Positions 5,710 to 42,495 of a stretch of DNA of 64,000 nucleotides are shown in pieces. Source of the DNA: Hanstruepera neustonica (GTDB lineage Bacteria > Bacteroidota > Bacteroidia > Flavobacteriales > Flavobacteriaceae). Made by a program: the position numbers and the translations under genes. Position 1 is the stretch's first letter. The number at the start of each line of letters is the position of its first letter. Where the stretch lies: positions 124,001-188,000 of the forward strand of contig NZ_POWF01000004.1 of assembly GCF_002895005.1 (NCBI RefSeq). Reading direction: 5' to 3'. The notes under the pieces were generated by a model. That model was not told the origin of the DNA. It saw only the letters and a list, made by a program, of their open reading frames with translations, and did no database searches.

Positions 5710-6933
5710 TTGTCCAACTCTTTAAACATTCCCGACTATAACAAACCCATTTCCCGATTGGCTGTTAAGCTCAATAGTAATGGCGAGCGCAGTGTTTTAC
5801 AAGGGCATCCGTGGGTATTTGAAAACAGTATTGTTAAACAGAACAAAGAAGGACATTCAGGAGATATCTGTATTATTTTTAGAAAGCGCGATGATGCTGT
5901 TATAGGTATTGGCTTGTTGGATAAGTCATCACCAATTCGTATCAAGATGTTGCATCATGGTGGTCCTCAAAAAATGGACGATACCTTCTTCACTAATGCC
6001 ATTCAAGATGCTTATTCCAAAAGACGCCATTTATTAAAAACCAATACCAATAGTTATCGGTTGTTATTCGGTGAAAATGATGGTTTTCCAGGTCTGATAG
6101 CAGATGTTTATGCTAATGTATTGGTGGTGAAACTCTATTCTGAAATTTGGTATCCTTATTTAAAAGTTATTATATCCAGCTTGATTACTGTTTCCAAAGC
6201 AGAAACGGTTGTTTTACGCTTAAGTAGAAATTTGCAACAAGCTGATTCAGATTTTTTAGATGGACAAGTCATTTATGGTACATTAGATCATGAAGTCGTT
6301 CAATTTGTTGAGCATGGTGTACATTTTTCGGCTAACGTCATAAAAGGACATAAAACGGGTTATTTTTTAGACCACAGACATAACCGAAAGCTTGTAGGTG
6401 AGTTGAGCAAAGGTAAAACGGTATTGGATGTTTTTGCTTATGCAGGTGGTTTTTCGGTTCACACCTTGGCCAATCAAGCTAAAGAAGTTACCAGTTTGGA
6501 TATTAGTCAGCAGGCTTTGGCAATTGCTTTGGAAAATGGTAAACGTAATGCCTATTCTGGAAAGCACCATATTATATGTGGTGATGCGTTTGAAGAAATG
6601 GAAAAACTCATTCGAGAAGAAAGGACTTATGATGTGGTTGTCATAGATCCACCAAGCTTTGCCAAACAGCAATCTGAAATAACATTGGCTAAAAAGAAAT
6701 ATGCACAATTGGCCAAACTAGGAGAGAAGCTTACAGCTAAAAAAGGAATATTGGTTTTAGCATCTTGTTCATCTCGTGTGAGATCAGATTCGTTTTTTGA
6801 TATTAATCAGCAAGTATTACAGGCGACTAATCGCCCGTTTAAAGTGATTTTAAAAACCGAACATGATGACGATCATCCCATTGGTTTTCCAGAAGGCGCT
6901 TATCTGAAATGTGGGTATTATAGATTGGATTAA
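5710..6933 (+). CDS. Class I SAM-dependent rRNA methyltransferase, RlmI-like (PUA + Rossmann)
   Basis: 407 residues. An N-terminal PUA-like domain (about 15-95, with the GHPWVFENSI segment) precedes a Rossmann methyltransferase domain. SAM motif I is VLDVFAYAGGFSVH and motif IV is VVIDPPSFAK, with LASCSSRV after it; this is the COG1092/RlmI arrangement of a 23S rRNA (cytosine-5) methyltransferase. The start is TTG: no in-frame ATG occurs before the PUA core, and the TTG lies 16 bases after the previous stop. Function is inferred from the family; the target nucleotide is not shown by the sequence. Confidence 0.88.
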   Translation: MSNSLNIPDYNKPISRLAVKLNSNGERSVLQGHPWVFENSIVKQNKEGHSGDICIIFRKRDDAVIGIGLLDKSSPIRIKMLHHGGPQKMDDTFFTNAIQDAYSKRRHLLKTNTNSYRLLFGENDGFPGLIADVYANVLVVKLYSEIWYPYLKVIISSLITVSKAETVVLRLSRNLQQADSDFLDGQVIYGTLDHEVVQFVEHGVHFSANVIKGHKTGYFLDHRHNRKLVGELSKGKTVLDVFAYAGGFSVHTLANQAKEVTSLDISQQALAIALENGKRNAYSGKHHIICGDAFEEMEKLIREERTYDVVVIDPPSFAKQQSEITLAKKKYAQLAKLGEKLTAKKGILVLASCSSRVRSDSFFDINQQVLQATNRPFKVILKTEHDDDHPIGFPEGAYLKCGYYRLD

Positions 6934-6943
6934 CTATTTAAGC

Positions 6944-7879
6944 ATGAAACAAATTCCAAGATATAAACTACTCATCATTCTGTCCTTCTTTGCTATTTAT
7001 GTTATATGGGGTTCTACCTATTTATTGAATAAAATTGCTGTATCTGAAATTGCCCCATTGTTATTGGCAGCATATCGATTCATTAGTGCTGGTTTACTCG
7101 TAATTATTATTGCCCTAATTCTGAAACTCAATCTTAAAATCAGCAAAAAACAAATGCTCAATTCAGCGATTGCTGGGTTTTTATTTCTGACTTATGGAAA
7201 TGGAATTTTTGTTTGGGCTCTCAAGTATGTAGATAGTGGGTTTGCAGCATTAGAAGCAGCTACACAACCCTTGTTCGTTATTTTATTAATGCGCATACTG
7301 TATGGGGTTAAAATGGCAGTTAAATCCATTCTAGGCGTCTTTTTAGGAATATTGGGTATGTTTTTACTAGTTCATCAAGACGGATTAGATTTAAATAGTC
7401 ATAGCATCATTGGCATGTTGATGATTTTATCGGCAGTATTAAGTTGGAGCTATGGTAGTATTTTTGTTTCGAAAGCTGATTTGCCGTCCAATTTTTTTGT
7501 CAGTACCGCTTACCAAATGATTTTTGGTGGTTTGATGCTCTTTATCTTAAGTTTTGGGCTCAATGAAACATGGACAACGCCAGAATTTTGGAGTTATAAA
7601 GTTCAAACGGCTATGGTTCTTTTGGTTATTTTTGGAAGTATCGTTGCTTTTACGGCTTTTAATTATTTACTAAAAGTGGTTTCTACTGAAAAAGTGTCAA
7701 CTTCAGCATATGTCAATCCAGTTATTGCGCTGATTCTCGGATGGTACTTTTTGAATGAAACGATTACACTGCAATCCATTGTTGCTGCAATTGTACTGTT
7801 ACTCGGCGTGTACTTTATTAATTCTAGAAAAGCAACGATTCCTAAAAAGATTAAATTGGTAAAACGGCCAAAATATTAA
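6944..7879 (+). CDS. EamA/DMT family transporter
   Basis: 311 residues from the ATG at 6944 (MKQIPRYK), 10 bases after the methyltransferase stop. A GTG at 6911 would overlap the upstream gene and adds nothing hydrophobic. About ten transmembrane segments form two EamA repeats. The first begins IYVIWGSTYLLNKIAVSEI, a typical DMT entry motif, and the C-terminal repeat ends with ILGWYFLNE. It is an inner-membrane metabolite exporter of unknown substrate. Its 3' end overlaps the convergent TolC-like gene by 29 bases, with no terminator visible between them. Confidence 0.88.
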   Translation: MKQIPRYKLLIILSFFAIYVIWGSTYLLNKIAVSEIAPLLLAAYRFISAGLLVIIIALILKLNLKISKKQMLNSAIAGFLFLTYGNGIFVWALKYVDSGFAALEAATQPLFVILLMRILYGVKMAVKSILGVFLGILGMFLLVHQDGLDLNSHSIIGMLMILSAVLSWSYGSIFVSKADLPSNFFVSTAYQMIFGGLMLFILSFGLNETWTTPEFWSYKVQTAMVLLVIFGSIVAFTAFNYLLKVVSTEKVSTSAYVNPVIALILGWYFLNETITLQSIVAAIVLLLGVYFINSRKATIPKKIKLVKRPKY

Positions 7880-9248
7880 ACAGTTTAGCCTTGGTTTCAA
7901 AAAACTTATACTCTAAATCTATAGCTTTTAATTTGGCATCAATAAGTTTGGATTCGCGACTGTTAACCAAAAATATAGAACTCTCACCAATGAAGAACTT
8001 GCGCTCTTCAGCAGACAGTAAGGTTTCATAATCACTTACAATACTGGTATTGTATTCATTTTGGACAGTAAACGAACTTAACTCTTGATTAATGGCAGAA
8101 ATTTTATTCTTAAGCGTGACTTTAGTCGCTTCAATTTCAAATTCCGTATCCAACATTTTAAGTTTGGCTAATTTCAAATCGGCACGTTCTTTCCTTAAAA
8201 ACAATGGCAAACTCACATTCACCCCACTTTTATAATTACTGGTGTTGAATGAATTTATGACTTCAGGAGTTTGAGATAAAAAATTATACTCCAGATTTAT
8301 TTTTGGTAATAAATTATTGGCAGCCAAACGTCTATTAATATTCAAGCCTTCATATTTATATTCCAATGACAGCATTTTTGGATGTGTTGCGATGTCAAAA
8401 CTGGCTAGATCAAATTCTGATGTGCTAAAAACAGCATCAATATTCAATAATGTATTGGTATCTGGAATAATATTATCCTGAAGTTCAATAGGTATATTGT
8501 TTTCCAACCATAAATAGTTGGAGAGCTCTAAACTGGCTTTAATATAAGTAATTCGCGATTTTTCATAGTTCAAGCGTCTGTCATTTAAAGCAATTCTGGC
8601 CTCTGTGGTGTCAATAGCCGCACGCTCGCCAACTTGATAGCTTTTTTTAACACCTTCAAATCGCAGATTGGCATTCTCAACAAAATCCTGATAAACTTGT
8701 TTTTGGTTGTAAGCTCGTAGCCAGTTAAAATAGGTAACCGAAGCTTGATATAAAATGTCGTTTACCAATAATTGTCGGTCCATGGCAGCTTGTTGAGTAA
8801 ACAACTTGGCCTGTTTTAACATGGACATACGCTCATTCATAATCAAACCTCTAGCAATATCAATAGATACACCAACACTGTATAAACCCTCTTCAGGAAT
8901 CGTAGCTTCTGGATTGAGGTAAACGCCTTCGTTTTCTTCAAAATTACCTTTAAACTCAACACCATACCATGTGGGTATTTTAAAAGTGGCGTTCAATTTA
9001 TCGTAATATTCTGTGTTTTTGAATTTTTTTCGATCATAATCCACTTCCAATTTTGGGTCAAAGGCGCCACGTGATTTAAGCAGCTTGAGCTCACCTTCAT
9101 CTACAATTAAATTGGCCTGCTTAACTATAGGGTGAAAGGATTTTACAAATCCCAAATATTCAGATAATGTCATGATGCTATCTGTTGTCTGCTGTGCATT
9201 TAACATACTACAACAGGAAATGAACATGACCAATACAAAATATTTCAT
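7851..9248 (-). CDS. TolC-family outer-membrane efflux protein
   Basis: 465 residues from the ATG at 9248, chosen because it starts directly with a signal peptide (MKYFVLVMFISCCSMLNAQ) and follows the upstream stop by 4 bases; an upstream start at 9278 would overlap the HlyD gene. The protein shows two long alpha-helical repeats typical of TolC channels (for example the YQVGERAAIDTTEARIAL helix and the C-terminal IFLVNSRESKLIDAKLKAID). It is the last gene of a four-gene export operon and likely forms the outer-membrane duct for the HlyD-ABC pair before it. Confidence 0.88.
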   Translation of the reverse strand: MKYFVLVMFISCCSMLNAQQTTDSIMTLSEYLGFVKSFHPIVKQANLIVDEGELKLLKSRGAFDPKLEVDYDRKKFKNTEYYDKLNATFKIPTWYGVEFKGNFEENEGVYLNPEATIPEEGLYSVGVSIDIARGLIMNERMSMLKQAKLFTQQAAMDRQLLVNDILYQASVTYFNWLRAYNQKQVYQDFVENANLRFEGVKKSYQVGERAAIDTTEARIALNDRRLNYEKSRITYIKASLELSNYLWLENNIPIELQDNIIPDTNTLLNIDAVFSTSEFDLASFDIATHPKMLSLEYKYEGLNINRRLAANNLLPKINLEYNFLSQTPEVINSFNTSNYKSGVNVSLPLFLRKERADLKLAKLKMLDTEFEIEATKVTLKNKISAINQELSSFTVQNEYNTSIVSDYETLLSAEERKFFIGESSIFLVNSRESKLIDAKLKAIDLEYKFFETKAKLFNILAVLPI

Positions 9249-9252
9249 GGTT

Positions 9253-10605
9253 TTATTTGCTTTTATCTTCTGATCCATTTTTTTGTGGTGTATAATATTC
9301 AGCTGGAAAACTATTTAATTGTCTCCATATTTCATACCAAATAGGCACATCATTTAATAAGGCAATGGTTCTGGCTCCAGAGCCTACTCGTATACCTTTT
9401 GGCCATTTATAATCGGTTTCATCTGGTGCTAATAACACGCGATATTTACCATTGGCACTAATAAAGTTTTCAATAGCCACAATTTTGGCACCATAAGTTC
9501 CATAAGAGGCATTGGGCCAACCACTAAAGACAATGGCAGGCCAACCATCAAATTGAACCCTTACTTTTTCCCCAATATGGAGTAGCGGTAAATCAATGGG
9601 TCTAACATAGGTTTCAACCGCCAGTTCAAATTCAGCAGGCATAATACCAACCAATTCTTCACCTTCTTTAAACGTCACACCAATTCCACCTCTCAAGGCC
9701 TTATTGATAAAACCATTTTGTGGGGCCGTTACATAAAGCAAATCATTTCGCTTTTTATAATTAGTGTAGTTATTTTCCAATTTGGTGACTTGTGCTTTAG
9801 CATCAAACTGATTGGATTGCGCCGTAAACTTATCACTTTCAGCCTTCGATATTTTATCGGAATATTCAGCATTGGTGCGCGTTATTTCCATTTCTGCATT
9901 AAAAACGTCATTGATGCTTGCCAATAATTTATTTTCCTGCGAAATCAATTTAGCCTGATTTTCTTGCAGTTTCAAGCGTTTTTCTTCAACATCCTTTACG
10001 GCCTTTAAACCTTCTTCCTGTAAAGTAAGTGTACGATTATATTGCCTTTCAGCAATTTCTAAATTGGTATTAGCAGCCTTAAAATCTATGCTATCACTTT
10101 TAACCTTAAGCTTGGCTTGTAACAATTTGTTTTCGGCTTGTTTTAGTTTTAACTGGCGTTCTTGTTGTAAGGCTACTATCTGTCTGTTTAAGGCTTCAAC
10201 TTTGCCTTCATATGCAGTAACCGATGAAGCTTTGGCGCTAATTTGATCACCCGTACGCTCCACCAAACGCTCATCAAAGTATTCACTTTTGACTTCAGAA
10301 ATTCTTAATATAGTATCACCTTTTTTGACATAGTCACCTTCTTGTACAAACCATTCTTCAATTCGGCCAGGAATTTGCGATTGGATGGTTTGTGGTCTGT
10401 GATTAGGTTTTAAGGTCGTCACTAGTCCTTGACCGGTAATATTTTGAGTCCATGGTAAGAACAATATGACGATTAGAATGATTGAAAAGACGATTAAAAA
10501 CCGATTTAAAATTTTAAAATAGTTTTTATCCAATACCATTTTACCTGATTGAAAATCAGTTAATGGTATTTTTTTATTTAATTCGTTCTTGGATATATTT
10601 AACAT
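9253..10605 (-). CDS. HlyD-family periplasmic adaptor (membrane fusion protein)
   Basis: 450 residues with one N-terminal membrane anchor (about 32-50, FLIVFSIILIVILFLPW). It continues with a biotinyl/lipoyl-like hairpin half (IPGRIEEWFVQEGDYVKKGD), a long coiled coil (about 120-290) and a C-terminal beta barrel containing the second lipoyl half. This is the adaptor layout of type I secretion and efflux systems. It sits 2 bases after the ABC gene and 4 bases before the TolC gene, so the three are co-transcribed and probably form one trans-envelope machine. Confidence 0.9.
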   Translation of the reverse strand: MLNISKNELNKKIPLTDFQSGKMVLDKNYFKILNRFLIVFSIILIVILFLPWTQNITGQGLVTTLKPNHRPQTIQSQIPGRIEEWFVQEGDYVKKGDTILRISEVKSEYFDERLVERTGDQISAKASSVTAYEGKVEALNRQIVALQQERQLKLKQAENKLLQAKLKVKSDSIDFKAANTNLEIAERQYNRTLTLQEEGLKAVKDVEEKRLKLQENQAKLISQENKLLASINDVFNAEMEITRTNAEYSDKISKAESDKFTAQSNQFDAKAQVTKLENNYTNYKKRNDLLYVTAPQNGFINKALRGGIGVTFKEGEELVGIMPAEFELAVETYVRPIDLPLLHIGEKVRVQFDGWPAIVFSGWPNASYGTYGAKIVAIENFISANGKYRVLLAPDETDYKWPKGIRVGSGARTIALLNDVPIWYEIWRQLNSFPAEYYTPQKNGSEDKSK

Positions 10606-25980: not shown

Positions 25981-26409
25981 ATGAAAACATTATATGAAGC
26001 TACCACCGAAGCGGTTGGTGGGCGTAAAGGCCACGTAAAATCTGAAAACAGTCCGATTGACTTTAGCTTGTCTGTGCCTAAATCTATGGGTGGTGATGGC
26101 GGTAATGGTGCCAACCCGGAACAATTGTTTGGTGCAGCTTATGGCGCCTGTTTTGGAGGAGCCATACAAGCTATTGCCCAACAGCAAGGTCTGGATATTG
26201 ATGAGGAGTCTTTAAGTGTAACAGCTATTATTGGATTCTGTAAGGACGAGGATGGCTTTTGCCTGGAAGCCACGCTGGACTGCTATATCCCAGGTGTGGA
26301 TTTGGAAACCGGTGAGGATCTGGTTGAAAAAGCCCATGAAATCTGCCCCTTTAGTAAAGCAACCCGTGATAATATTACGGTGACCTTAAACTTGTTATTG
26401 GACGAGTAA
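25981..26409 (+). CDS. ohr: Organic hydroperoxide resistance protein Ohr
   Basis: 142 residues, normal for the OsmC/Ohr family. Peroxidatic Cys57 lies in YGACFGGA and resolving Cys122 in HEICPFSKATR, the diagnostic Ohr pair. It reduces organic hydroperoxides with lipoylated-protein reductants (family knowledge). The gene is monocistronic and ends in a clear terminator. No OhrR gene is seen in the window. Confidence 0.95.
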   Translation: MKTLYEATTEAVGGRKGHVKSENSPIDFSLSVPKSMGGDGGNGANPEQLFGAAYGACFGGAIQAIAQQQGLDIDEESLSVTAIIGFCKDEDGFCLEATLDCYIPGVDLETGEDLVEKAHEICPFSKATRDNITVTLNLLLDE

Positions 26410-26436
26410 GGCTTTATAGCTTTTTGAAGATAATAT

Positions 26437-26470
26437 GGTGTCTAAATTTTAGGTTTAGGCACCTTTTTTT
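26437..26470 (+). terminator. Rho-independent terminator after ohr
   Basis: GGTGTCTAAA (26437-26446) pairs with TTTAGGCACC (26454-26463) with one G-U, 7-base loop, then seven T. Confidence 0.88.
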
Positions 26471-26492
26471 ATTCTCAAAAGTTTCAAAAGGC

Positions 26493-26500
26493 TATATTTG
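26493..26500 (+). promoter_or_regulatory. -7 promoter box of the 26528 gene
   Basis: TATATTTG matches TAnnTTTG exactly, 27 bases before the start codon. Confidence 0.55.
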
Positions 26501-26527
26501 TCACACTAGCAAACCAAATAATTAAGC

Positions 26528-27331
26528 ATGACAGATAACGCTATTCTACCTGAAACCGAAAACCTATCAGAAGACATTAAACTCTATTCAATCCGTGCCA
26601 TAGGAGGTGCCACTTTTTTAGGAGGGCCATTGGCAGGTGGCTTTATGATTAGCGAAAACTTTAGAGCCATTAATAAACCAGTTCAAGGGCGCAATGCCTT
26701 ATTGATGGCTATTTTGGTAGCTATAGCGGTGTTTTCAATGGTGTTTTTTGTTCCAGAAACCATTTTGGATAAGATACCTAATGTCATAATTCCCAGCTTA
26801 TATACAGTCATCGGATTGGGAATAGTGGAATGGCAAATGGGCGACCTGCTCAAGAACCATAAAGCTGCCAATAAGCCATTTTACTCTGGGTGGCGTGCCG
26901 CCGGTATTGGGCTCATATCCCTAATAATTACCTTTGCTATTCTGCTTGCTGGTATTTTTTTATTGGGTAATGATGCTGTTTACGAGGAATATGATACACA
27001 AATGGAACCATATTTCGAGAACGAAAACAATACTTTAGGGTTTTATGATCGTTTAGAAACGGCTAGTGTCAATGAATTATTATATGAATTGGACTCCAAT
27101 GCTATTCCCAAGTGGATAGAGAATGTGGCTATTATAAAAAAAGTAAACACCCTAGAAGATTTACCACCAGAACTCGTAAAGCAAAACACAGTGCTATTGG
27201 AATATGCCGAACTACGTGTCGAAACCTTTAAGCTCTTTAGAAAAGCTATTGAAGAAAACACGACGTATTATGATAATGAACTGGAACAACTACATCTAAA
27301 AATAGAAAACACGATTAATACGTTGGAATAG
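26528..27331 (+). CDS. Hypothetical inner-membrane protein
   Basis: 267 residues with three transmembrane segments (about 56-75, 82-100 and 121-145) followed by a hydrophilic, acidic C-terminal half of about 120 residues, probably cytoplasmic or periplasmic and helical. No signal peptide. I do not recognise the family. The gene has its own TAnnTTTG promoter and follows the ohr terminator, so it is monocistronic. Confidence 0.7.
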   Translation: MTDNAILPETENLSEDIKLYSIRAIGGATFLGGPLAGGFMISENFRAINKPVQGRNALLMAILVAIAVFSMVFFVPETILDKIPNVIIPSLYTVIGLGIVEWQMGDLLKNHKAANKPFYSGWRAAGIGLISLIITFAILLAGIFLLGNDAVYEEYDTQMEPYFENENNTLGFYDRLETASVNELLYELDSNAIPKWIENVAIIKKVNTLEDLPPELVKQNTVLLEYAELRVETFKLFRKAIEENTTYYDNELEQLHLKIENTINTLE

Positions 27332-27412
27332 CAGTCACGTTTTGGATAGAGCCCATCAGGCCTTCATATCCTGTATAGTCTCTACTGAAGCGTCGGGAGT
27401 TTCAACATCTAA

Positions 27413-27434
27413 AAATACGTACATGTACGTATTT
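27413..27434. promoter_or_regulatory. Perfect 22-bp palindrome upstream of the patatin gene
   Basis: Eleven-base arms with no spacer, centred on ACATGT (left arm AAATACGTACA). It lies 53 bases before the patatin start and is not followed by a T-tract, so a dimeric-regulator operator is more likely than a terminator. Confidence 0.5.
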
Positions 27435-27486
27435 GTTATTAGCAAAGAATGTTTTAGCTTGTAGCTACTAATCAACCTAATAATAC

Positions 27487-29037
27487 ATGTCAAACATCAA
27501 ATCCTTATTTCTAGTAGGTTTCCTATTAGCACTAAGTTCATGTACCGTTTACAAAAAAGTAGATTTACCAAGTCAAAATACTATACAGGGTTATCAAGGT
27601 GACAATCCAGAGGAAGCCAAACAAGTAGCCCAAGAAAATGCCAAAAGACTAGAAGTCTACAATGCCGAAAAACCATTTATCAAAAACAGCGATAATCTAG
27701 AGTGGGGTCTGGCCATGTCTGGTGGAGGTGTCCGTTCGGCAACCTATAACTTTGGTGCACTTAAAGCACTCTATGATATGGGGTGGTTGCAAAAAATGCA
27801 AATAATATCCAGTGTATCGGGTGGCGGCTATCAGTCATATGCACTATACACCAACTTTTATATGCATAATTCAGATTCCGTTAAACCCTTTGGCTATTTT
27901 ACATTTAGTGATGATTATTTCCTTCAAAATGTCTGTAAGCAACAAGGCTTGGCAAATTTTGTCAATAACTGGAAATATGTTCAAGCTATTGTAAGCCCTC
28001 CCAAAGGGGCCTTCAATATTTATAAAAATCAAATTCAACGTTCTTATGGCAACGAAGCACCTAGCACTTTAAAAATAACAGACCTTAACCAAGAAATCAA
28101 AAGGGGAGAAGCTCCCTATTTCATAATCAACACAACACTTACCAGTACAAAAGAATCAGATTGGGCAAGTAGTTTGGTAGAGTTTACGCCAGCATTCTAT
28201 GGCAATCCTGAATTGGGCTTTTACTCTTATAATGCGAATAATCCTATTTACTGGAGTGAAGCCACAACTATTTCCGCCGCAGCACTTAAGTTTAAGCTCT
28301 TGCACAAAGTACCATATTTAGGCAATGCCATAACTTTAGACTATCTCGCTTTATCAGATGGAGGTCATTCTGAGAACTTGGCAGCCATAGCCCTCATTCG
28401 TCGTCGTGTTAAAAATATTGTAATAATAGATGCCGAACATAACGACAACTACAGTTTCGATGGGTACAAAATCTTAAAAACCAAATTGCAAAATGAGTTA
28501 AACCTAAACCTGAATATTAAAACCATTGATGACTATCTCATGCAACGTGAGGTAGATTCTACTAGCATTCTTAAAACAGCAGTACATTATGGCACAATTA
28601 GTAAAATACCTATGTCAACAGAACAACAGGATGGTCTAGAAATCAATATCTATTACATTAAAATGAGTATGCCACAAAACATGTTAGCACAACGGCGAAA
28701 CTTACATATGATTGAAGATGGAAGAGAATTAAACAACCTATTTAAAAACACCACCTGTAAACAATATAAACCAAATGGTAATTGTAAAACAAATCATGAT
28801 TGTAGCGCATGGCAGGAAACGAAATCCATTAATTTAAATAACCTAGCTCTCTTTTGGATAGAGACCTATGCCACTTTTTTAAACAATAAAAAGAAATGGA
28901 AACGACTAGGCTATACTTTTCCACATACTACCACAGCAGACCAAAGTTTTTACCGAGATCAATTGGCTGCCTTCATAGGACTGGGATATTTGCAAGGGTT
29001 AGAATTAAAAAAGTCATTTGGTCTAGTACCTGATTAA
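27487..29037 (+). CDS. Patatin-like phospholipase lipoprotein
   Basis: 516 residues. Signal peptide with lipobox (ALSSC, Cys19). The patatin oxyanion motif is GGGVR (79-83). The nucleophile Ser111 sits in SVSGG, where the usual first Gly of GxSxG is Ser. The catalytic Asp is D291 in SDGGHSENL. The Ser-Asp dyad is thus present. As a lipoprotein it should act on envelope lipids, which argues against a cytoplasmic CBASS-type effector. A perfect palindrome precedes it. The C-terminal 150 residues, with a CKQYKPNGNCKTNHDC cysteine patch, are unassigned. Confidence 0.85.
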   Translation: MSNIKSLFLVGFLLALSSCTVYKKVDLPSQNTIQGYQGDNPEEAKQVAQENAKRLEVYNAEKPFIKNSDNLEWGLAMSGGGVRSATYNFGALKALYDMGWLQKMQIISSVSGGGYQSYALYTNFYMHNSDSVKPFGYFTFSDDYFLQNVCKQQGLANFVNNWKYVQAIVSPPKGAFNIYKNQIQRSYGNEAPSTLKITDLNQEIKRGEAPYFIINTTLTSTKESDWASSLVEFTPAFYGNPELGFYSYNANNPIYWSEATTISAAALKFKLLHKVPYLGNAITLDYLALSDGGHSENLAAIALIRRRVKNIVIIDAEHNDNYSFDGYKILKTKLQNELNLNLNIKTIDDYLMQREVDSTSILKTAVHYGTISKIPMSTEQQDGLEINIYYIKMSMPQNMLAQRRNLHMIEDGRELNNLFKNTTCKQYKPNGNCKTNHDCSAWQETKSINLNNLALFWIETYATFLNNKKKWKRLGYTFPHTTTADQSFYRDQLAAFIGLGYLQGLELKKSFGLVPD

Positions 29038-29059
29038 GTGAAATCGAGTTAATGTATGT

Positions 29060-29707
29060 ATGAGTACTTTAATTGTTTTAGGGTCTGCTCATTCTGAAGG
29101 AGGAGCATGTACATCCGAAGAATTATATAATATTATTCAGGAAATAAAACCTGAAGTCGTTTTTTGCGAGGTTTCACCTGAAAAGCTACCTCAGTTTTTA
29201 AAAAGAACTGATGTTAGTTCAACTGAAATGGAGGCTATTAAAAGATTAATTAATGAAGAATCTATTAATGTTGTTCCTGTTGACGTGAATGAAGATCCAT
29301 TCGACCAACGCCTTGAGGCAATGTTTTCATTATTCAAACGAAAAATGAAAGTATACATTAATGCGCATAATATGAGTTTAAATGAGACATATTTAAAAGG
29401 GTTCAAATTTTTAAATAGTGTCGACAGCGACAAAATATTCAGAGATAAAAATGATATGGAGCGGTATTTCATTGAAACAGTAAATAATCAAGAGTTATCA
29501 AATTTTTATAGCGATTGGTTAAAATGGAATGATAAACGAGAAAACCAATGGATTAATCTTGTTCATAACTACTTTAAAATAAATAAACCTAAAGTTGGAG
29601 TTTTTCTTGTTGGGGCAGGTCACAGATTTCGATTGATAGATAAGATTGAAAATGTAAAAAATAGAAATAAACTTTTAGTGAGCTGGGATTTTTTTCATTT
29701 CAAGTGA
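29060..29707 (+). CDS. TraB/GumN-like (TIKI superfamily) protein
   Basis: 215 residues, no signal peptide. N-terminal GSAHSEGGACTSEELY, followed by EIKPEVVFCEV and C-terminal VFLVGAGHRFRL, match the paired G-x-x-H motifs and mid Glu of the TraB/PrgY/GumN/Tiki superfamily of putative metalloproteases. The protein is short and lacks a membrane anchor. It lies 22 bases after the patatin gene and may be co-transcribed. Base composition is AT-rich. Activity is unproven. Confidence 0.6.
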   Translation: MSTLIVLGSAHSEGGACTSEELYNIIQEIKPEVVFCEVSPEKLPQFLKRTDVSSTEMEAIKRLINEESINVVPVDVNEDPFDQRLEAMFSLFKRKMKVYINAHNMSLNETYLKGFKFLNSVDSDKIFRDKNDMERYFIETVNNQELSNFYSDWLKWNDKRENQWINLVHNYFKINKPKVGVFLVGAGHRFRLIDKIENVKNRNKLLVSWDFFHFK

Positions 29708-29878
29708 AGCATGTTACATGTAGGTAGGCACATTATGTTTGAAGAATGATCATTATAATGTTAAAAACTTTGATTACTTTACGGTTTTCCCTCACATACT
29801 TTCCTACAAAATTTAGTATATTTATTGTCTCCCTAAAATAATTTAATCAAAGATTTTTTTTTGAACTATCCATTTATG

Positions 29879-29896
29879 TGATTCTTTTTAGAATCA
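29879..29896 (+). promoter_or_regulatory. Hairpin / inverted repeat before the RloC-like gene
   Basis: TGATTCT TTTT AGAATCA, a perfect 7-4-7 inverted repeat 28 bases before the start codon. It could be an operator or leader hairpin. A TATATTTA -7-like box lies near 29815-29822. Confidence 0.4.
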
Positions 29897-29924
29897 TTTA
29901 TTAAATCATTGAATTTTTAAAAAT

Positions 29925-32489
29925 ATGTCAAAGGCAAACACACAGAGAGAATTAATAGACTACTTATGGGAATGGGCTGAATCTAAAGGCATTTGGGCAA
30001 AACTCCTAGTGCAAAAAATAACAACAACACAGGCTCCTTTGGTACAATCTGAAAAACAAGAAATTTTTAATTACTATATACAGGGAATAGGGTTTCAATT
30101 TGACCCTCCATTACCATCGATAAACATAAACAAACCCACTTTTACACCACCAACCAAGGAAGTTTCACTTACAAAATTATCTGAAATTAAAGGGGTTAAT
30201 ATGTTGGCTGAAGACCAAGTAATGGATTTTAGCCCGAATATAACTGTAATATATGGAAATAATGGTGTTGGAAAAACAGGCTACAGCCGTGTTCTAAAGG
30301 CTCAAGGCTATAGTTTTGATAGTAATATTGACATTCTTTCTAATGTTCATGAAACACAAGTTGGACAACAAGCAAAAATAGAATTTACATCAGATGGAAA
30401 ACCATACAGCATTTATTGGAAAGGTGAAATTCTTTCATCAGATTTAAATGCCGTTTCGGTTTTCAATAGTGATTGTGTGAATATATCACTATCAAATACT
30501 CGTGAATTATTAGTTACTCCAAAAGGATTTTATCTTTTTTCTTTAATAACAAATGAGTTAGGAGCATTAAGTACAATGCATACACAACAGTATACTATAT
30601 ATCCAATAAGTCTGCCTTGGGTTGATCAGCTTCATGAAGGAAGTCCGCAGAAAACGTATATTGACTCTTTAGCCCATAATTCTGATAAGCAAAAACTTGA
30701 GGAACTTTCTTTGTTTACTGATGAGAATCAGGTTAATCTAATGAATAAAGAAGAAGAGCTAAAAAGGCTTAATAAATCAACACTTGAAGCTCAAATAAAG
30801 AATATCGACCTTATTCTGTCTGAATTATCAAGAATAATTACACTTGTAAAATACACACAATCCAACCTAACTAAAAATGATTGGGATAATATAATTAATT
30901 ATAATGCTGCATTAAAAGTATTAAGAGCTAAAACCCAGAAAGGTATTGCAGAGTTGGCAGAAGTAAATGGTTTGCAGCAATTTAACACTATAGAGTTTAA
31001 AGAGTTTTTGAAGTCTGCTGATTCATATATTAAACTAATTGCTAAAGAAAATTATCCCAATAATGAAGATGATACATGTGTTTATTGCAAACAGGATTTG
31101 AAAGATGAAAAAGCAAGAAACTTGGTTGAAAGCTACAGTAAAATATTGAATGACACTACAGAAGACGAAATTGCTAAATTTGAAAAACTTAAGAATATTA
31201 TCGTTGAAAGAGTTAATTTATTGGCTGATACAATTGTGTTTCACCAACCGGCTTTTGGTTTAAAAGAAGATAATTCAATTATACAACCTAAAGAAATTGT
31301 CGAACTTAATTCAAAAGTTAAATTGTATAAAGGTCATATAGTCAATAACACAGTTAATACAGATATTGATTTTGAAATAAACTACGTTTCGACAATTAAA
31401 TTTTTAGAGAATAAACAAACAGAGTTTATCTCTTCCAAAACATTATTGATTAAAGCATTAACAAATTTAGAGACGTTTGAGTCAAAGCTGAAAAAAGAAA
31501 TAGCTGAATTAAAGGATAGAAAACTCTTGTTCGCACATAAAAAGGAAGTAATTACTTGTATATCAAATTTATTTGCTAAAAAATTACTGGATGACAATAA
31601 AATTCAATTTAATACAGCTTCATTAAGTGCAAAAACAACTCAAGCTCGTGAAGAACTTGTGGCACAAGACTTTCAAGATAAGTTTGCAGCTGAATTGACG
31701 GCATTTAGAAAGCAACATCTCGGTGTGAGTATTGGTTTTTTTTCTCAACAAGGAAGTTCAAGAATAAGACAAAATATTGGACAATATGACATTAATAAAG
31801 TGTTAAGTGAAGGAGAACAAAAAACTATAGCTCTTTGTGAATTTTTAACCGAGTTACAACTTGACACAACAGTAGCTCCCGTTGTTTTTGACGACCCAGT
31901 AAATTCTTTAGACCACAATATTATGCAGGATGTGGCAAAGAGATTAGTTGATTTGTCTAAAGAAAGACAAGTTATTGTATTTACTCATAATGTACTTTTT
32001 TACAATGCGTTTTTTTCTTTAGAAGGACACGTTTTATATAAAAGCAACACTAATTTTAAGTTTTACAAAGTAAATACTAATGGTGTCAATACTGGTATTT
32101 TGTCTGATGGTACACCAATAAATAAATTGAGAGCATATACCAGTAAACTTAATTCTATATGTAATAATGGATTAGATGGTCGTAATGAAAACGATGTAGC
32201 AGCTGAAGGCTATGACTATTTGCGAACAGGATTAGAACTATTAGTCTCGAATTCAATTTTTCAAGAAATAGTTGGGAGATATAGAAATAACATTATGATG
32301 ACAAAATTTCCAGCAGTAAAAGGCGATATGATAGAAAAGCATAAAGCTGAAATTGACGGAATGTTTTCGCGTGCGAGTGGATTTATAAGAGCCCATAGTC
32401 ATCCAGAAGAACATCACGCGCCACCAACAATGAATGATTTAATAGCCGATTACGAACGATTTAAGGTTATAGAAAATGATTTCAAATAA
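29925..32489 (+). CDS. RloC/PrrC-like AAA_13 ATPase, candidate anticodon nuclease
   Basis: 854 residues. Walker A GNNGVGKT (111-118). A long coiled coil is broken at mid-length by C385-V-Y-C388, a zinc-hook-like CxxC. ABC-type signature LSEGEQK (about 627) and Walker B VVFDDP (D656, D657), then FTHN H-loop (about 688). The C-terminal domain has R767-x3-E771 (LRTGLE) and FIRAHSH (H824, H826), fitting the R-x3-E...H triad of PrrC/RloC anticodon nucleases. Rad50-like ATPase plus hook plus nuclease is the RloC layout, but no type I restriction genes accompany it. A DUF2130 gene follows after 28 bases. Very AT-rich, suggesting acquisition. Nuclease activity is inferred. Confidence 0.75.
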   Translation: MSKANTQRELIDYLWEWAESKGIWAKLLVQKITTTQAPLVQSEKQEIFNYYIQGIGFQFDPPLPSININKPTFTPPTKEVSLTKLSEIKGVNMLAEDQVMDFSPNITVIYGNNGVGKTGYSRVLKAQGYSFDSNIDILSNVHETQVGQQAKIEFTSDGKPYSIYWKGEILSSDLNAVSVFNSDCVNISLSNTRELLVTPKGFYLFSLITNELGALSTMHTQQYTIYPISLPWVDQLHEGSPQKTYIDSLAHNSDKQKLEELSLFTDENQVNLMNKEEELKRLNKSTLEAQIKNIDLILSELSRIITLVKYTQSNLTKNDWDNIINYNAALKVLRAKTQKGIAELAEVNGLQQFNTIEFKEFLKSADSYIKLIAKENYPNNEDDTCVYCKQDLKDEKARNLVESYSKILNDTTEDEIAKFEKLKNIIVERVNLLADTIVFHQPAFGLKEDNSIIQPKEIVELNSKVKLYKGHIVNNTVNTDIDFEINYVSTIKFLENKQTEFISSKTLLIKALTNLETFESKLKKEIAELKDRKLLFAHKKEVITCISNLFAKKLLDDNKIQFNTASLSAKTTQAREELVAQDFQDKFAAELTAFRKQHLGVSIGFFSQQGSSRIRQNIGQYDINKVLSEGEQKTIALCEFLTELQLDTTVAPVVFDDPVNSLDHNIMQDVAKRLVDLSKERQVIVFTHNVLFYNAFFSLEGHVLYKSNTNFKFYKVNTNGVNTGILSDGTPINKLRAYTSKLNSICNNGLDGRNENDVAAEGYDYLRTGLELLVSNSIFQEIVGRYRNNIMMTKFPAVKGDMIEKHKAEIDGMFSRASGFIRAHSHPEEHHAPPTMNDLIADYERFKVIENDFK

Positions 32490-32517
32490 AAGAAACTAAT
32501 TAATAATTATATTAATA

Positions 32518-33786
32518 ATGAAAAATGAAACTCAAATAAAATGTCCTAATTGTGGAACTTCAATTGATGTTCAGGATATTTTGGCTCATCAATTAGAGGA
32601 AGAAATAAAACAAAAATATCAATCTCAAATTGCTGAAGAAAAAAAGAAATATGAAGCAGAACAAAAAAAGTTAAATGAAGATAAACTTGAGTTTGAAAAA
32701 AAGAAAAAACAAGAAAATGAGCTATTTCAAGAACGATTAGAAAATCAGTTAAAAGAAGAAAAGAAAGAAATAGAATTAAAACTAAAACTTAAATTAAAAG
32801 AAGAACAATCTGAACAATTTGATGCCTTACAAAAAGAATTGAATGAAAAGTCAGATCAAGTAAAAGAATTGAATCGTTCTAAAGCAGAGATTGAAAAGTT
32901 AAAGCGTGAAAAAAATGAACTAAAAGAAGCCGCTGAAGCAGAAGCACAAAAGAAGCTAAATGAAATACTAATTGCTGAAAAGGAGAAGATTAAAAAATCT
33001 GAAGAAGAAAAGAATGAATTACGTTTCAAAGAAATGCAAAAGCAACTGGAAGACCAGAAAAAGCTTACTGAAGAGATGAAACGTAAGCAGGAGCAAGGTT
33101 CTATGCAACTTCAAGGAGAAGTTCAAGAACTAGCAATAGAGGAGTGGTTAGCATCAAAGTTTCCCATAGACACTATTGAAGAAATAAAAAAAGGTGCTAG
33201 AGGAGGAGATTGTATCCAAATTGTGCACACAAGAACTGAACAAAACTGTGGATCAATTTACTACGAAAGTAAAAGAACAAAAGATTTTCAACCCAGTTGG
33301 ATTGAAAAATTTAAAGCAGATATAAGAGATAGAGGAGCAAATATAGGTGTTTTGGTAACAGAAGTAATGCCATCTGATATGGATAGAATGGGATTAAAAG
33401 ATGGTATTTGGATATGCAATTATGAAGAATTTAAAGGACTATGTGTAGTTTTAAGAGAAGGTATTATACAGGTAAACAATGCTGTTATAACTCAAGAAAA
33501 TAAAGGAGATAAAATGGATTTACTTTATGACTATCTAACTAGTAGTACATTCAGAATGCAAATAGAAGCTATTGTTGAAGGGTTTACTCAAATGAAATCA
33601 GATTTAGATAGTGAAAAACGTTCAATGCAAAGAATTTGGAAACAAAGAGAAAAGCAAATTGAAAAGGTTGTAACAAACACAATTGATATGTATGGTTCAA
33701 TAAAAGGAATAGCTGGAAATGCTATACAATCAGTAAAAGCATTAGAGTTGCCTGGAATCGGTGATGAGTTAGAATTAGATTTGTAG
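32518..33786 (+). CDS. DUF2130 protein with coiled coil and PD-(D/E)XK-like domain
   Basis: 422 residues. A short N-terminal CPNCG zinc-knuckle half-site is followed by a long, highly charged coiled coil (about 20-195) and a globular domain (about 200-330). That domain carries D231 (GGDCIQIV) and E250-S-K252 (YYESKR), the spacing of a PD-(D/E)XK nuclease core, with GVLVTEVMP and DGIWICNYEEF as later strands. A helical tail (about 340-422) follows. DUF2130 has no settled function that I know. Its pairing with the RloC-like gene, same strand and 28-base gap, suggests one operon. Nuclease activity is an inference from three residues. Confidence 0.78.
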   Translation: MKNETQIKCPNCGTSIDVQDILAHQLEEEIKQKYQSQIAEEKKKYEAEQKKLNEDKLEFEKKKKQENELFQERLENQLKEEKKEIELKLKLKLKEEQSEQFDALQKELNEKSDQVKELNRSKAEIEKLKREKNELKEAAEAEAQKKLNEILIAEKEKIKKSEEEKNELRFKEMQKQLEDQKKLTEEMKRKQEQGSMQLQGEVQELAIEEWLASKFPIDTIEEIKKGARGGDCIQIVHTRTEQNCGSIYYESKRTKDFQPSWIEKFKADIRDRGANIGVLVTEVMPSDMDRMGLKDGIWICNYEEFKGLCVVLREGIIQVNNAVITQENKGDKMDLLYDYLTSSTFRMQIEAIVEGFTQMKSDLDSEKRSMQRIWKQREKQIEKVVTNTIDMYGSIKGIAGNAIQSVKALELPGIGDELELDL

Positions 33787-33850
33787 CGTAATAGAAATCG
33801 CTAAAACATTTATGCTTATATTGATTGATCTTGGAATCCCAAAATTTCTC

Positions 33851-33927
33851 AAATGCCCAACCAAACAATCAAAAAAATGCTTATATTTATATTATAACCT
33901 ACTTATAATCAAATGCCTAAACAAACA
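33851..33927 (+). repeat. Short imperfect direct repeat spanning the start of the 33913 gene
   Basis: AAATGCCCAACCAAACA (33851-33867) and AAATGCCTAAACAAACA (33911-33927) match at 15 of 17 bases, exactly 60 bases apart; the second includes the start codon of the downstream gene. The first could encode the start of a decayed copy that stops after about 14 codons. Confidence 0.4.
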
Positions 33928-34707
33928 GGGTTCATAAAAATAAAGGGTACCTTAAACGGGGTGTGTTACTACCCACTCAAAGGAGCGTACATTTACCGTA
34001 CAGCGGTGGGCCCTTCCAAAGAGCGCATCTACAACGATCCCGCATTCAAACCCGTCAAGGCAAACTTATTGGAGTTCGGTGGAGCTTCCAAACTAGCAAA
34101 AGCCATTTGTACAGGCTTGAAGCAAAATGTAGCCGCGTTTAAAGACAGCTACATGACAAGCAGGTTATCGGGTTGTTGCCGTAAAATCATTCAAAAGGGT
34201 AGTGGGGAGCCAGGGCAACGGGAGGCAAACCTCTTCAATCAGCCAGAATTACTAATAGGCTTTCAACTCAATAAAACAAAAGTATTCAGCCAAATATATA
34301 CCGTAAAACCCATAATAACAAGCAATACAGCACGTTCTGTAGTCAATATCAGTATTCCAAAAAGTGACAAATACCACCTCAAACAAGCACCCAAAACAGC
34401 CACACATTTCAGGCTAACTGCTGCCTTAAGTATCGTATCCAATTACAAATGGTCAGATACCGTACAAGGCTATCAACCACAACATCCAAATAGTAATGGT
34501 TTAGGTGTCACTAGCCAATCTAGTCCATTATTATGTAAAATAGAGCATCAAAACATCTATTTACAGCTCATCAATCCCATAAGCACAGGCATACCGGCAA
34601 ATACGGCCATTACGGTCTGGTTGGGCATCCAATACGGCAACATGGTCCAAAATGAGTTTAGTCCCTTTAAAACCGCACAGGCTATGGCGTGTGTCGCAGT
34701 GCTTTAG
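33913..34707 (+). CDS. Hypothetical protein
   Basis: 264 residues, basic, no signal peptide and no membrane segment. The N-terminus (MPKQTGFIKIKGTLNGVCYY) and a CCRK pair near residue 82 are the only notable features; the C-terminal half looks beta-rich. I do not recognise the family and no catalytic motif is visible. Its GC content is clearly higher than that of the RloC-DUF2130 pair upstream, which marks a composition boundary near 33800. Confidence 0.65.
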   Translation: MPKQTGFIKIKGTLNGVCYYPLKGAYIYRTAVGPSKERIYNDPAFKPVKANLLEFGGASKLAKAICTGLKQNVAAFKDSYMTSRLSGCCRKIIQKGSGEPGQREANLFNQPELLIGFQLNKTKVFSQIYTVKPIITSNTARSVVNISIPKSDKYHLKQAPKTATHFRLTAALSIVSNYKWSDTVQGYQPQHPNSNGLGVTSQSSPLLCKIEHQNIYLQLINPISTGIPANTAITVWLGIQYGNMVQNEFSPFKTAQAMACVAVL

Positions 34708-35089
34708 CCATATTCTAGTCATAAAAACCACATAGCATCGTCATAGCTACTAGGAGGTTCACCCGTGCTTACGTCGTATCAAAGCCGTAGTTACTTCGGG
34801 TCAGCTTCAGGTAAACGCCATATCAGTTTCGGGTAAATCTTATATAAGTATGCAATCTCCCATAATTTTCAAATCCGTGAGATATGCTTAAAATATTTTT
34901 TTGTGAGTATTTTATCGAATACGTGATTTTTAGAATCTAGGCATAAATAGGAATTACTTTGACAAATTGGACTATTCATAAGATAGTATGAATTATCTAT
35001 TTGTTCTATAATTTATATTATGTAAAATAGAACTTTTTCAGAACACACCTATTCCGTGAGTATAACACATTCGTGAGAATCATCTAGAA
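34708..35089. other. 382-base intergenic region without a gene
   Basis: No convincing ORF or tRNA. The first 130 bases are GC-richer and hold a 16-base direct repeat with 3 mismatches (34801-34816 and 34823-34838). Four G/T-GTGAG-type hexamers (34876, 34902, 35055, 35072) occur in the AT-rich remainder. Nothing more can be assigned. Confidence 0.35.
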
Positions 35090-35938
35090 ATGGTATCTTT
35101 AATCCATTCTATGGATACGCTCACCTCACAGCAACAACAATTGCAATTACAATATCAGGGTTTTATTCAAACGCAGCCATTATGGTTTGGTCAGCTAAAT
35201 AATAACTTACAGCAATTTGGTTTGATGGCTTTACAGGATTCGGTACCATTGCATCCACAAGATGCGCCCAAACGTTTGGGCAACCGTGTAGAATATTTTG
35301 TGTTCCAGAGTTTGGCACAGCAAGCACATATTAAAATTCTGGAGACTAACTTGCAAATACAGCAAGATAAACAAACCTTGGGTGAATTGGATGCCTTACT
35401 CTTGGTAAATAACCAACCCATTCATTTGGAGATAATCTATAAGTTCTATGTGTACGATCCGTTGGTTGGTACCACCGATCTGGAACATTGGATTGGACCT
35501 AACCGAAAAGATAGTCTGGTCTATAAACTGGATAAATTACGGAACAAGCAACTACCCTTGCTACAGGCCCCAGAAACACAGCCTTATTTAGAACGCCACA
35601 GGTTGGATTCAGCATCTATAAAGCAAGAAGTGTTGTTTCTGGCACAGTTGTTTGTACCGAGAGCTACGGCTACTGCTGTACCATTCGAGCAACTGAATGC
35701 CAAAGCCGTTATGGGAACCTATGTGCGTTTACCGGATTTAGAAACCTATACCACCTGTAGTTTATACATACCCAACAAACTGGATTGGCTGGTGTTGGCA
35801 CATAATACGGTGAGCTGGCAACCCTATACCCTGATTAAATCCCAGTTGGAAGCACTCCTGCAAACCAAACGGGCACCATTAATATGGATGCGCCATCCTG
35901 ATGGTCAATTGGAACGCCTATTTGTGGTCTGGTGGTAA
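35090..35938 (+). CDS. DUF1853 family protein
   Basis: 282 residues, cytoplasmic. The segment GELDALLLVNNQPIHLEI with IYKFYVYDPL and the following WIGPNRKDSL are the hallmark of DUF1853. D101 with E114 and K118 resembles a PD-(D/E)XK arrangement (E-x3-K), though the family's function is unknown. Two in-frame ATGs, 35090 and 35111, are possible starts. It is convergent with the small secreted-protein gene 3 bases away. Confidence 0.8.
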   Translation: MVSLIHSMDTLTSQQQQLQLQYQGFIQTQPLWFGQLNNNLQQFGLMALQDSVPLHPQDAPKRLGNRVEYFVFQSLAQQAHIKILETNLQIQQDKQTLGELDALLLVNNQPIHLEIIYKFYVYDPLVGTTDLEHWIGPNRKDSLVYKLDKLRNKQLPLLQAPETQPYLERHRLDSASIKQEVLFLAQLFVPRATATAVPFEQLNAKAVMGTYVRLPDLETYTTCSLYIPNKLDWLVLAHNTVSWQPYTLIKSQLEALLQTKRAPLIWMRHPDGQLERLFVVWW

Positions 35939-40839: not shown

Positions 40840-42396
40840 TTACTCGGCTGGTCTACCATGTATTTCCGAGAAGACATCATCAAAATTACTGCGTAGGTAA
40901 GCACGTAGCTTTTTACGATAATCATCCTTAAGCCACTCCACAAAATTGAAGGTACTCTTACTGATACACTTGGTGTAACGCTGAATACGATAATCGATAT
41001 CATCTCCCAATAGTTTCGCTAAATCGAGTGCGTCATATACGTCTTCACTGTTTTCAATGCATATTTTGGCGTGATGCGCAATGGAACGTTCCAAAACAAC
41101 TTTTGAAGATTCACCAGCACGCACGGCATCGACATAGGTCTTTTTGATATCGAAATACACATCTTCAGAATTGGCAAATGACAGTCGTAAATCTTCCGGC
41201 ATTTCATAGCGGAAGTTTTCCTCGATTTCTTCATCACCCAAAATACCATCCAAATAGAAATTAGGGGTTCTAAAAATGCGGTGCCAATCTAGATCAGCTC
41301 CCCAAGGCCCAAAACGGTGTAAATTATTTCCTAAATCAATGACCGTGAATGAGTTTTTGTTCTTAAGAATTCTGGAACCACGACCAATCATTTGATAATA
41401 TAAGGTCAATGATTTGGTAGCTCTGTTTAAGATAATAGATTCAACTGTGGGTTCGTCAAAACCAGTGGTTAAGATACTTACCGATGTTAAGATCGCATCC
41501 GGCGTATCCTTGAACCACTTTAATATTTTCTTACGCTCTTTTTTTGAGTTGGTATTATCTAAATGCGCAATAGGATAACCGGCTCTTCTAAAGGTATCAT
41601 AAACATGCAACGAGGTGTTGATACCATTATTAAAAATAAGGGTCTTTTTACCTTTGGAACGCTCTTCATAGGCCATGATAAGCTTTGAAAGCATATCATT
41701 ATTGGTATAAAGATCTTCGGAAGACTTTACGGTATAATCGCCATTGGCACCAACCACCAAAGATGTTAACCCGACATTGTAAGAGTAAATATCGGCACTA
41801 GCCAAAAACTCATTCTTAATAAGTGATTCAATGCTTTCACCAACAATCAGTTCATCATAATTATCCTTCATAGGTAATTTGATGTTGGAACTCAATGGTG
41901 TTGCCGTAACCCCAAGAATGAATGACTTTTCAAAAAACTTAAAGAGTTTGGTAAAGGAGTTATAATGCGCCTCATCAATAATAACCAGACCTATATCTGA
42001 AATATCCAGTTTATCTTCATTCAGACGGTTATTGAGGGTTTCGACCATAGCCACAAAGCAGCTGTACTGACCTTGGTCATCTAAATTGGCTTTACTATTG
42101 ACCACTTTATTTTCTACACCAAACTCCGTAAGCATAGCCGATGTTTGACGGCACAACTCAATACGGTGCGTCATGACCAACACCTTTTTTTGGTGATGCT
42201 TGAGATACTGCCTGACGATTTCTGAGAAAATAACAGTTTTCCCACCTCCAGTTGGTAATTGATATAGTAAATGATAATCTTCAGGAGCTTCCTCAAAGCT
42301 CTTGAATATCTTGTTAATGGCACCTTTTTGATAACTATAGAGGTCCTTCCCTACCTTTCTATCTTCTAACTCTAATGTTGAAATAGTTTGACTCAT
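40840..42396 (-). CDS. SF2 DEAD-like helicase
   Basis: 518 residues from the ATG at 42396 (MSQTIS); a TTG at 42408 would extend it by four residues. Walker A PTGGGKT, motif II DEAH (VIIDEAHYNS), motif III ATPLSS, motif V SILTTGFDEP, motif VI MIGRGSRI. This is an SF2 type III-restriction/UvrB-like helicase without an added nuclease domain. C-terminal 140 residues are helical and unassigned. DNA or RNA specificity not visible. Confidence 0.88.
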   Translation of the reverse strand: MSQTISTLELEDRKVGKDLYSYQKGAINKIFKSFEEAPEDYHLLYQLPTGGGKTVIFSEIVRQYLKHHQKKVLVMTHRIELCRQTSAMLTEFGVENKVVNSKANLDDQGQYSCFVAMVETLNNRLNEDKLDISDIGLVIIDEAHYNSFTKLFKFFEKSFILGVTATPLSSNIKLPMKDNYDELIVGESIESLIKNEFLASADIYSYNVGLTSLVVGANGDYTVKSSEDLYTNNDMLSKLIMAYEERSKGKKTLIFNNGINTSLHVYDTFRRAGYPIAHLDNTNSKKERKKILKWFKDTPDAILTSVSILTTGFDEPTVESIILNRATKSLTLYYQMIGRGSRILKNKNSFTVIDLGNNLHRFGPWGADLDWHRIFRTPNFYLDGILGDEEIEENFRYEMPEDLRLSFANSEDVYFDIKKTYVDAVRAGESSKVVLERSIAHHAKICIENSEDVYDALDLAKLLGDDIDYRIQRYTKCISKSTFNFVEWLKDDYRKKLRAYLRSNFDDVFSEIHGRPAE

Positions 42397-42495
42397 AAAA
42401 TTTTCCAATGTGCAAAAATAAGGTCTTTTCTAGGTTTTTGAAGTATATTTTAAAATTAAAATTCAGACTTTTTCAACAGGTCATCGTTTAAAACT

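Follow-up and report, generated by a model that had tools for sequence, protein, structure and literature searches.

We analysed a 64,000-nucleotide stretch of the Hanstruepera neustonica genome (contig NZ_POWF01000004.1, positions 124,001 to 188,000 of the forward strand; hereafter the window) with respect to two adjoining genes. Gene 1 encodes an ABC ATPase with a candidate C-terminal tRNA nuclease (tRNase) of the RloC type, and gene 2 encodes a member of the family DUF2130. An initial annotation had placed open reading frames (ORFs) of 854 and 422 amino acids (aa) here, 28 bases apart, and had proposed that they form a two-gene defence module. The ORFs and the gap are as described: both genes are on the same strand in head-to-tail order, and because the strand is shared and the gap short, they are likely to be co-transcribed. 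No promoter is claimed for the pair, since its 12 promoter-like sites are fewer than the mean of 21.2 in shuffled sequences. The features are collected in Table 1.

Table 1. Coordinates of the two genes and their motifs in the window; counts refer to the alignments described in the text.
Feature	Position	Strand	Conservation
Gene 1: RloC-type ABC ATPase / C-terminal tRNase candidate, 854 aa (PADLOC PDC-S06)	29925..32489	+	
Walker A (GNNGVGKT), residues 111-118	30255..30278	+	kept in 15/15
Zinc-hook motif C385-V-Y-C388, coiled-coil insert	31077..31088	+	kept in 15/15; aligned in 9/9 distant relatives
ABC signature LSEGEQ, residues 627-632	31803..31820	+	kept in 15/15
Walker B PVVFDD, residues 652-657	31878..31895	+	kept in 15/15
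R767-x3-E771, putative catalytic triad	32223..32237	+	15/15 and 9/9 distant relatives
H824, third residue of putative triad, 52 residues between it and E771	32394..32396	+	15/15; aligned in 8/9 distant relatives
Gene 2: DUF2130 (PF09903), 422 aa; N-terminal CPxC, long coiled coil, PD-(D/E)XK-like core; facultative neighbour	32518..33786	+	
Single zinc-knuckle-like CPNC, residues 9-12	32542..32553	+	C9, P10, C12 invariant in 11/11
D231, nuclease-like core	33208..33210	+	invariant in 11/11
E250-S-K252, nuclease-like core, third strand of model	33265..33273	+	E250, K252 invariant in 11/11

Gene 1 is best filed as an RloC-type protein, with a predicted tRNA substrate, because all the published sequence criteria of that group are found in it; the initial annotation had likewise called it RloC-like. 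According to the founding description (Davidov and Kaufmann 2008, PMC2610378), RloC proteins are 658–897 aa long and combine a Rad50-like split ATPase carrying a CxxC hook with a C-terminal Arg-X3-Glu-X36-52-His motif, and a count of 5 of 36 is given for Bacteroidetes. Gene 1 falls within this range of lengths and shares with the RloC of Geobacillus kaustophilus the split ATPase, the hook, the R-x3-E-x36-52-H arrangement, the size and the weak linkage to restriction-modification (R-M) genes; it differs in having a DUF2130 neighbour and in being known here from sequence alone. In the Geobacillus protein, that paper reports, replacement of R692, E696 or H737 abolished activity, and mutation of the hook raised it strongly. 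The RNase domains of PrrC and RloC have been assigned to HEPN (PMC3710099). Gene 1 also belongs to an already catalogued kind of defence gene, PDC-S06 of PADLOC, whose model PDLC04888 it matches over essentially its full length (1262.6 bits, residues 2–853). The PDC systems are unpublished candidates according to PMC11811056, and the name PDC-S06 says nothing on DUF2130. In Pfam the protein matches AAA_13 with 58.8 bits (cut-off 36), and sequence searches of the PDB returned for it weak matches to AriA, ABC and SMC proteins only.

The conservation of the motifs was followed in an alignment of 15 sequences, consisting of the window protein and 14 full-length relatives (L069–L082). GTDB genome contigs were searched for them with two queries, the window protein and a relative; the search yielded 16 loci, 14 of them full length, in Bacteroidota plus one Desulfosporosinus. 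Outside the count of 14 are L083, which ends within the gene, and L084, an internal-deletion remnant. Lengths vary little across the alignment (849–855 aa), the spacer between Glu and His is exactly 52 residues in every sequence, and the switch His of the ABC head is kept in all 15, as are the motifs of Table 1. Nine more distant relatives (about 23–30% identical where given) retain the hook, R and E throughout, and the sole exception at the aligned His is a shorter Staphylococcus plasmid protein, so that over the wider family R and E are found in 24/24 and the aligned H in 23/24. The motif layout first read from this protein therefore stands for Walker A, CxxC, signature, Walker B, R767/E771 and H824. 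It does not stand for H826, which among the 15 is found only in the window protein and its 80%-identical relative. At the Labilibaculum locus L084, a 154-aa ORF (9911–10375) consists of the first ~25 and last ~120 residues of a gene-1 relative with R-x3-E...H retained, and is either the remnant of an internal deletion or a free-standing RNase domain.

An AlphaFold2 model of gene 1 built from the 15 sequences has a mean predicted local distance difference test score (pLDDT) of 72.8 and a predicted template modelling score (pTM) of 0.44. Its ATPase head resembles those of SMC, RecF and Rad50 (Z 13.4–16.2 among the 50 matches listed), and long helices flank the hook on both sides. The C-terminal region is modelled as all-helical, with R767 and E771 on helix 755–777 and H824 just past helix 801–819, at mostly low confidence. 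None of the listed PDB matches, whose ranges lie within residues 74–737, reaches this C-terminal domain, which excludes nothing. We also considered PrrC, the EcoprrI-linked anticodon nuclease, which like gene 1 is an ABC ATPase with a C-terminal R...E...H triad. However, PrrC proteins are described in PMC2610378 as 341–416 aa long, without the zinc-hook insert and invariably linked to type Ic R-M systems. Gene 1 has 854 aa and a hook, and there is no N6_Mtase match in the window, so an assignment to PrrC is rejected.

Gene 2 is a member of DUF2130 by a Pfam match of 265.7 bits (cut-off 26.7, E = 4.7e-79), and its protein is probably a PD-(D/E)XK nuclease. The family occurs in 122 of the 395 genomes sampled of the class and splits into two deep clades, one with the motif FEMKN (clade I; L116–L131) and one mostly with ESKRT motifs (clade II; L132–L154). 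The residues singled out in the initial annotation, D231 and E250-S-K252, proved well chosen: D231, E250 and K252 are invariant among 11 aligned members spanning both clades. A model of the core from 7 sequences (pLDDT 72.6, pTM 0.57) shows a helix, three strands, a helix and a strand, D231 starting the second strand and E250 and K252 lying on the third. This is the alpha-beta-beta-beta-alpha-beta order of PD-(D/E)XK proteins, in which D and ExK sit on neighbouring strands. With VIA-align the top matches of the core were the small subunit of R.BspD6I (Z 8.5), CRISPR ancillary nuclease 2 (8.4), Tk-TIP26 (8.4), McrBC (8.4) and the Holliday resolvase Hjc (8.1), all moderate scores. The remaining matches are mostly nucleases of the PD-(D/E)XK fold, with some unrelated proteins (RNA polymerase subunits) at Z < 6. 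Foldseek returned nothing for the core at E ≤ 0.001, the best hit being the non-nuclease human Rep15 (5.8e-3); nucleases of SPARDA and MspJI ranked next. A PDB sequence search gave a bL20 match at E 0.0012, taken as chance, and a profile of the core against the PDB gave nothing useful. The family assignment, the invariant D..ExK and the moderately strong fold comparison thus support the proposed PD-(D/E)XK-like nature of this protein, and its nuclease activity is a prediction from these. Among the papers that literature searches listed for DUF2130, PF09903 and COG4487, none names the family in its title or abstract.

A zinc-hook ABC ATPase beside a nuclease gene recalls Rad50–Mre11 and SbcCD. 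In contrast to those systems, the nuclease here is of another family (there is no Mre11-type phosphoesterase among the Pfam matches of the neighbour, which is DUF2130), and the pairing is not conserved. The match of the gene-1 head to RecF, SMC and Rad50, and the resemblance of the DUF2130 core to Holliday resolvases among other PD-(D/E)XK folds, could be read as signs of a repair module in which gene 1 is a Rad50/RecN-type DNA-repair ATPase without RNase activity. We consider this very unlikely. The C-terminal R-x3-E...H is invariant in the 15 sequences and, in PMC2610378, is said to have no counterpart in Rad50 and SbcC; moreover, gene 1 is rare and accessory, the window genome being alone with a close copy among 395 genomes of the phylum and 299 of the family.

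The distribution of the two genes does not bear out the regular pairing across genomes that the initial annotation expected. DUF2130 adjoins gene 1 in only two of the 14 other full-length loci, L076 and L071, and none was found around the other 12 with queries from both DUF2130 clades. The flanks of all 16 loci were checked for up to 10 kb per side, less in L069 (676 bases upstream), L076 (2.3 kb) and L079 (4.9 kb downstream). Because a single-sequence search with the window's DUF2130 misses clade I, clade-I proteins served as queries in a second round, and no further locus emerged. Neither L083 nor L084 has a DUF2130 gene. In L076 (genome G662, on the same contig as L058) the DUF2130 gene lies 93 bases upstream of gene 1, and the two proteins are 41% and 39% identical to those of the window. 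In L071 the order is HsdM-like, HsdS-like, a 217-aa gene, HsdR, YgjP-like, a 274-aa gene, DUF2130 and gene 1 (HsdM-like and HsdS-like judged by eye). With the window included, the three adjacencies thus comprise both gene orders, once behind a type I R-M operon, and the other two show about 40% protein identity to the window. Directly downstream of the pair in G662 we noted a 214-aa gene (L058, 4871–5515) with an R-x4-H stretch (RCGILHNAE), by eye perhaps a HEPN protein.

The nearest relative of gene 1, in Winogradskyella marina (L069), is about 80% identical (79% of bases) and has no DUF2130 within 10 kb downstream or 676 bases upstream. Genes of DUF6642 and DUF302 come after it, and behind these a homologue of the gene that follows the pair in the window; DUF2130 thus occupies a variable slot. 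Conversely, the closest DUF2130 in the tree (L139, 84% identical to the window's) is one of 23 other clade-II DUF2130 loci, none of which has a gene-1 relative in the stretch read (E ≤ 1e-5). The five distant plasmid relatives of gene 1 that were read have no DUF2130 annotated nearby. On either gene tree the pairing label has to change three times, the same number as after shuffling, and does not cluster; well-supported branches force two changes in the DUF2130 tree and three in the gene-1 tree. Note that three changes may equal one gain and two losses, and that some tree places are unsure because several rows are long branches, the DUF2130 genes of L071 and G662 among them. From the two loci out of 14, the missing partner at L069 and the three label changes on each tree, we reject an obligate gene 1–DUF2130 module. 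The pairing is recurrent and facultative.

A facultative system could still have a function, with DUF2130 acting as a DNA-cutting or tethering partner of the RloC-type ATPase, comparable to Mre11/SbcD for Rad50/SbcC, and being gained and lost around a self-sufficient core. The adjacency in three loci as divergent as the window, G662 and L071 argues for this, and of the class's 395 surveyed genomes, the two that have a close gene 1 (the window's and G662) both carry an adjoining DUF2130. For an assumed mean genome of 3.6 Mb and 138 DUF2130 copies, the rough probability of two in 14 under random placement is below 1e-5, or about 0.006 if DUF2130 is 30-fold enriched in such islands. The two proteins also have in common that each contains coiled coils and a CxxC motif. 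A weaker instance is L120 (3800–7855), where a 779-aa ATPase with a weak gene-1 match (20.2 bits) stands divergently beside a DUF2130 gene of clade I. However, the lack of DUF2130 around 12 of the 14 relatives, including the 80%-identical copy, the unclustered label on both trees and the 0/23 of clade-II loci, nearest DUF2130 included, all speak against a functional partnership, which we regard as unlikely.

Both genes are accessory. The window genome holds one copy of each, gene 1 is absent from all four congeners (the same query recovers the window's own genome), and so is DUF2130 at E ≤ 1e-20, which excludes the housekeeping conservation that had been named as a possible refutation. The interval between an OsmC-like gene (25981) and DUF1853 (35090), window 25981–35938, differs in content between congeners and is a hot spot of gene exchange. 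In the two congeners with both flanks in the stretch examined, it is occupied by different genes; for the remaining two, about 15 kb beyond DUF1853 contain no OsmC, gene 1 or DUF2130. The base composition had been described as AT-rich for the pair with a break behind it. The break is there, with GC contents of 31.2% and 30.4% for gene 1 and the DUF2130 gene against 43.0% for the next gene downstream (whole window 36.6%), and only 2.5% of 3.86-kb windows (step 100 bases) are lower in GC than the pair. However, the AT-rich run starts one gene earlier, at 29060, the preceding gene having a GC content of 30.4%. Upstream of gene 1, at 27487–29707, lie a patatin-like gene (26.1 bits, just below the Pfam cut-off) and an AT-rich, by eye TraB-like gene. 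A phage origin of gene 1 is not supported, none of 60 candidate viral-contig stretches encoding a relative; four proteins, gene 1 and DUF2130 included, had no PHROGs match at E ≤ 0.01.

The window also lacks type I restriction genes, as had been observed: it contains no N6_Mtase-family methylase gene, and a ResIII-domain helicase gene 7 kb downstream (40840–42408) has no R-M partner visible among the listed ORFs. The accompanying statement that RloC genes usually lie near type I restriction genes was wrong, as only 8 of 73 are linked to type I or III R-M systems in PMC2610378, so that the lack of such genes at this locus is normal for RloC. Another contig of the same genome (C13) does carry a type I R-M operon, with HsdM, HsdR and, by eye, HsdS. 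Action in trans with gene 1 is therefore possible, as PMC2610378 suggests. On C13 (146000–162000, L179), two class III cyclase-like genes (6321–8077), one matching PF00211 at E 1.5e-6 and the other recognized by eye, stand between the HsdS-like and HsdR genes alongside a small protein of membrane-like character; the R-M operon may contain a cyclic-nucleotide defence unit here.

Elsewhere each gene is met among R-M genes. Relatives of gene 1 lie between DNA methylase and restriction helicase genes in L073, in R-M-like operons (by eye) in L061 and L063, and in an annotated R-M operon on the Chryseobacterium plasmid L064; on four other plasmids they have no adjoining R-M genes. DUF2130 is beside annotated R-M genes on three of the four plasmids read, the exception being a Sulfurimonas plasmid, and by eye on two of five viral contigs. 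The DUF2130 genes of R-M operons share with gene 2 the family, the CPxC, the coiled coil and the PD-(D/E)XK-like core, and differ from it in their adjoining R-M genes. These observations, and the finding of both genes behind one type I operon in L071, suggest that the two are independent accessory genes that meet via R-M operons and variable islands without a joint function. We regard this as somewhat probable, and it overlaps with the explanation preferred below. It is weakened by a survey of neighbours in which 40 of about 135 DUF2130 matches were taken, 17 set aside (16 of clade I, and L115 as an antisense frame) and 23 clade-II loci kept. Among their 137 neighbour proteins no defence model had more than two matches and no Pfam family more than four, in tallies of the 25 commonest of 147 defence and of 193 Pfam families. 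With no common neighbour family, a general association with R-M genes or islands is weak for chromosomal DUF2130.

The explanation we favour, and hold to be likely, is that gene 1, placed in a variable island, encodes a stand-alone tRNase of the RloC type, to which DUF2130 is an occasional partner or a mere neighbour. The anatomy of gene 1, its conservation and its accessory locus are directly observed, and from work on RloC and PrrC we infer tRNA cleavage, its triggering and a role in defence. Specifically, the Rad50/SMC-like ATPase head with its zinc-hook coiled coil would keep the C-terminal HEPN-type RNase (R767, E771, H824) silent until a DNA-damage or phage signal leads the ATPase to release it. 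The released RNase would then cut the anticodon of tRNA, so that translation stops and phage growth is blocked. The type I R-M enzyme of this genome could take part in trans, as proposed for other RloCs. The DUF2130 gene would be a separate, widespread gene for a probable PD-(D/E)XK nuclease that lands beside such genes now and then. Several observations weigh against this explanation. The 52-residue spacer equals the maximum of the published 36–52 range (PMC2610378). From residue 731 the model falls to block pLDDT values of 36–81, mostly low, and a profile of the C-terminal domain found no solved relative in the PDB. Finally, the recurrent adjacency of DUF2130 in three divergent loci may mean that gene 2 matters more than is assumed here.

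A bolder proposal, which we think distinctly improbable, is that RloC-type ATPases can enlist DUF2130 to cut or tether DNA ends. A Rad50–Mre11-like complex would then cut phage DNA and, on failure, release the tRNase, providing a two-step defence without an R-M enzyme. If this were true, DUF2130 would serve R-M and RloC-type systems alike as a general nuclease module that can be exchanged. At the level of the families, the locus provides a clear RloC-type gene that shows all the published hallmarks of the sequence, and links it to PDC-S06, an unpublished candidate of PADLOC. It also adds evidence that DUF2130, a family widespread in the class, has a nuclease-like fold. Should the occasional pairing prove functional, it would identify a partner of RloC on the DNA side, a place in which the founding paper (PMC2610378) suspected an R-M enzyme.

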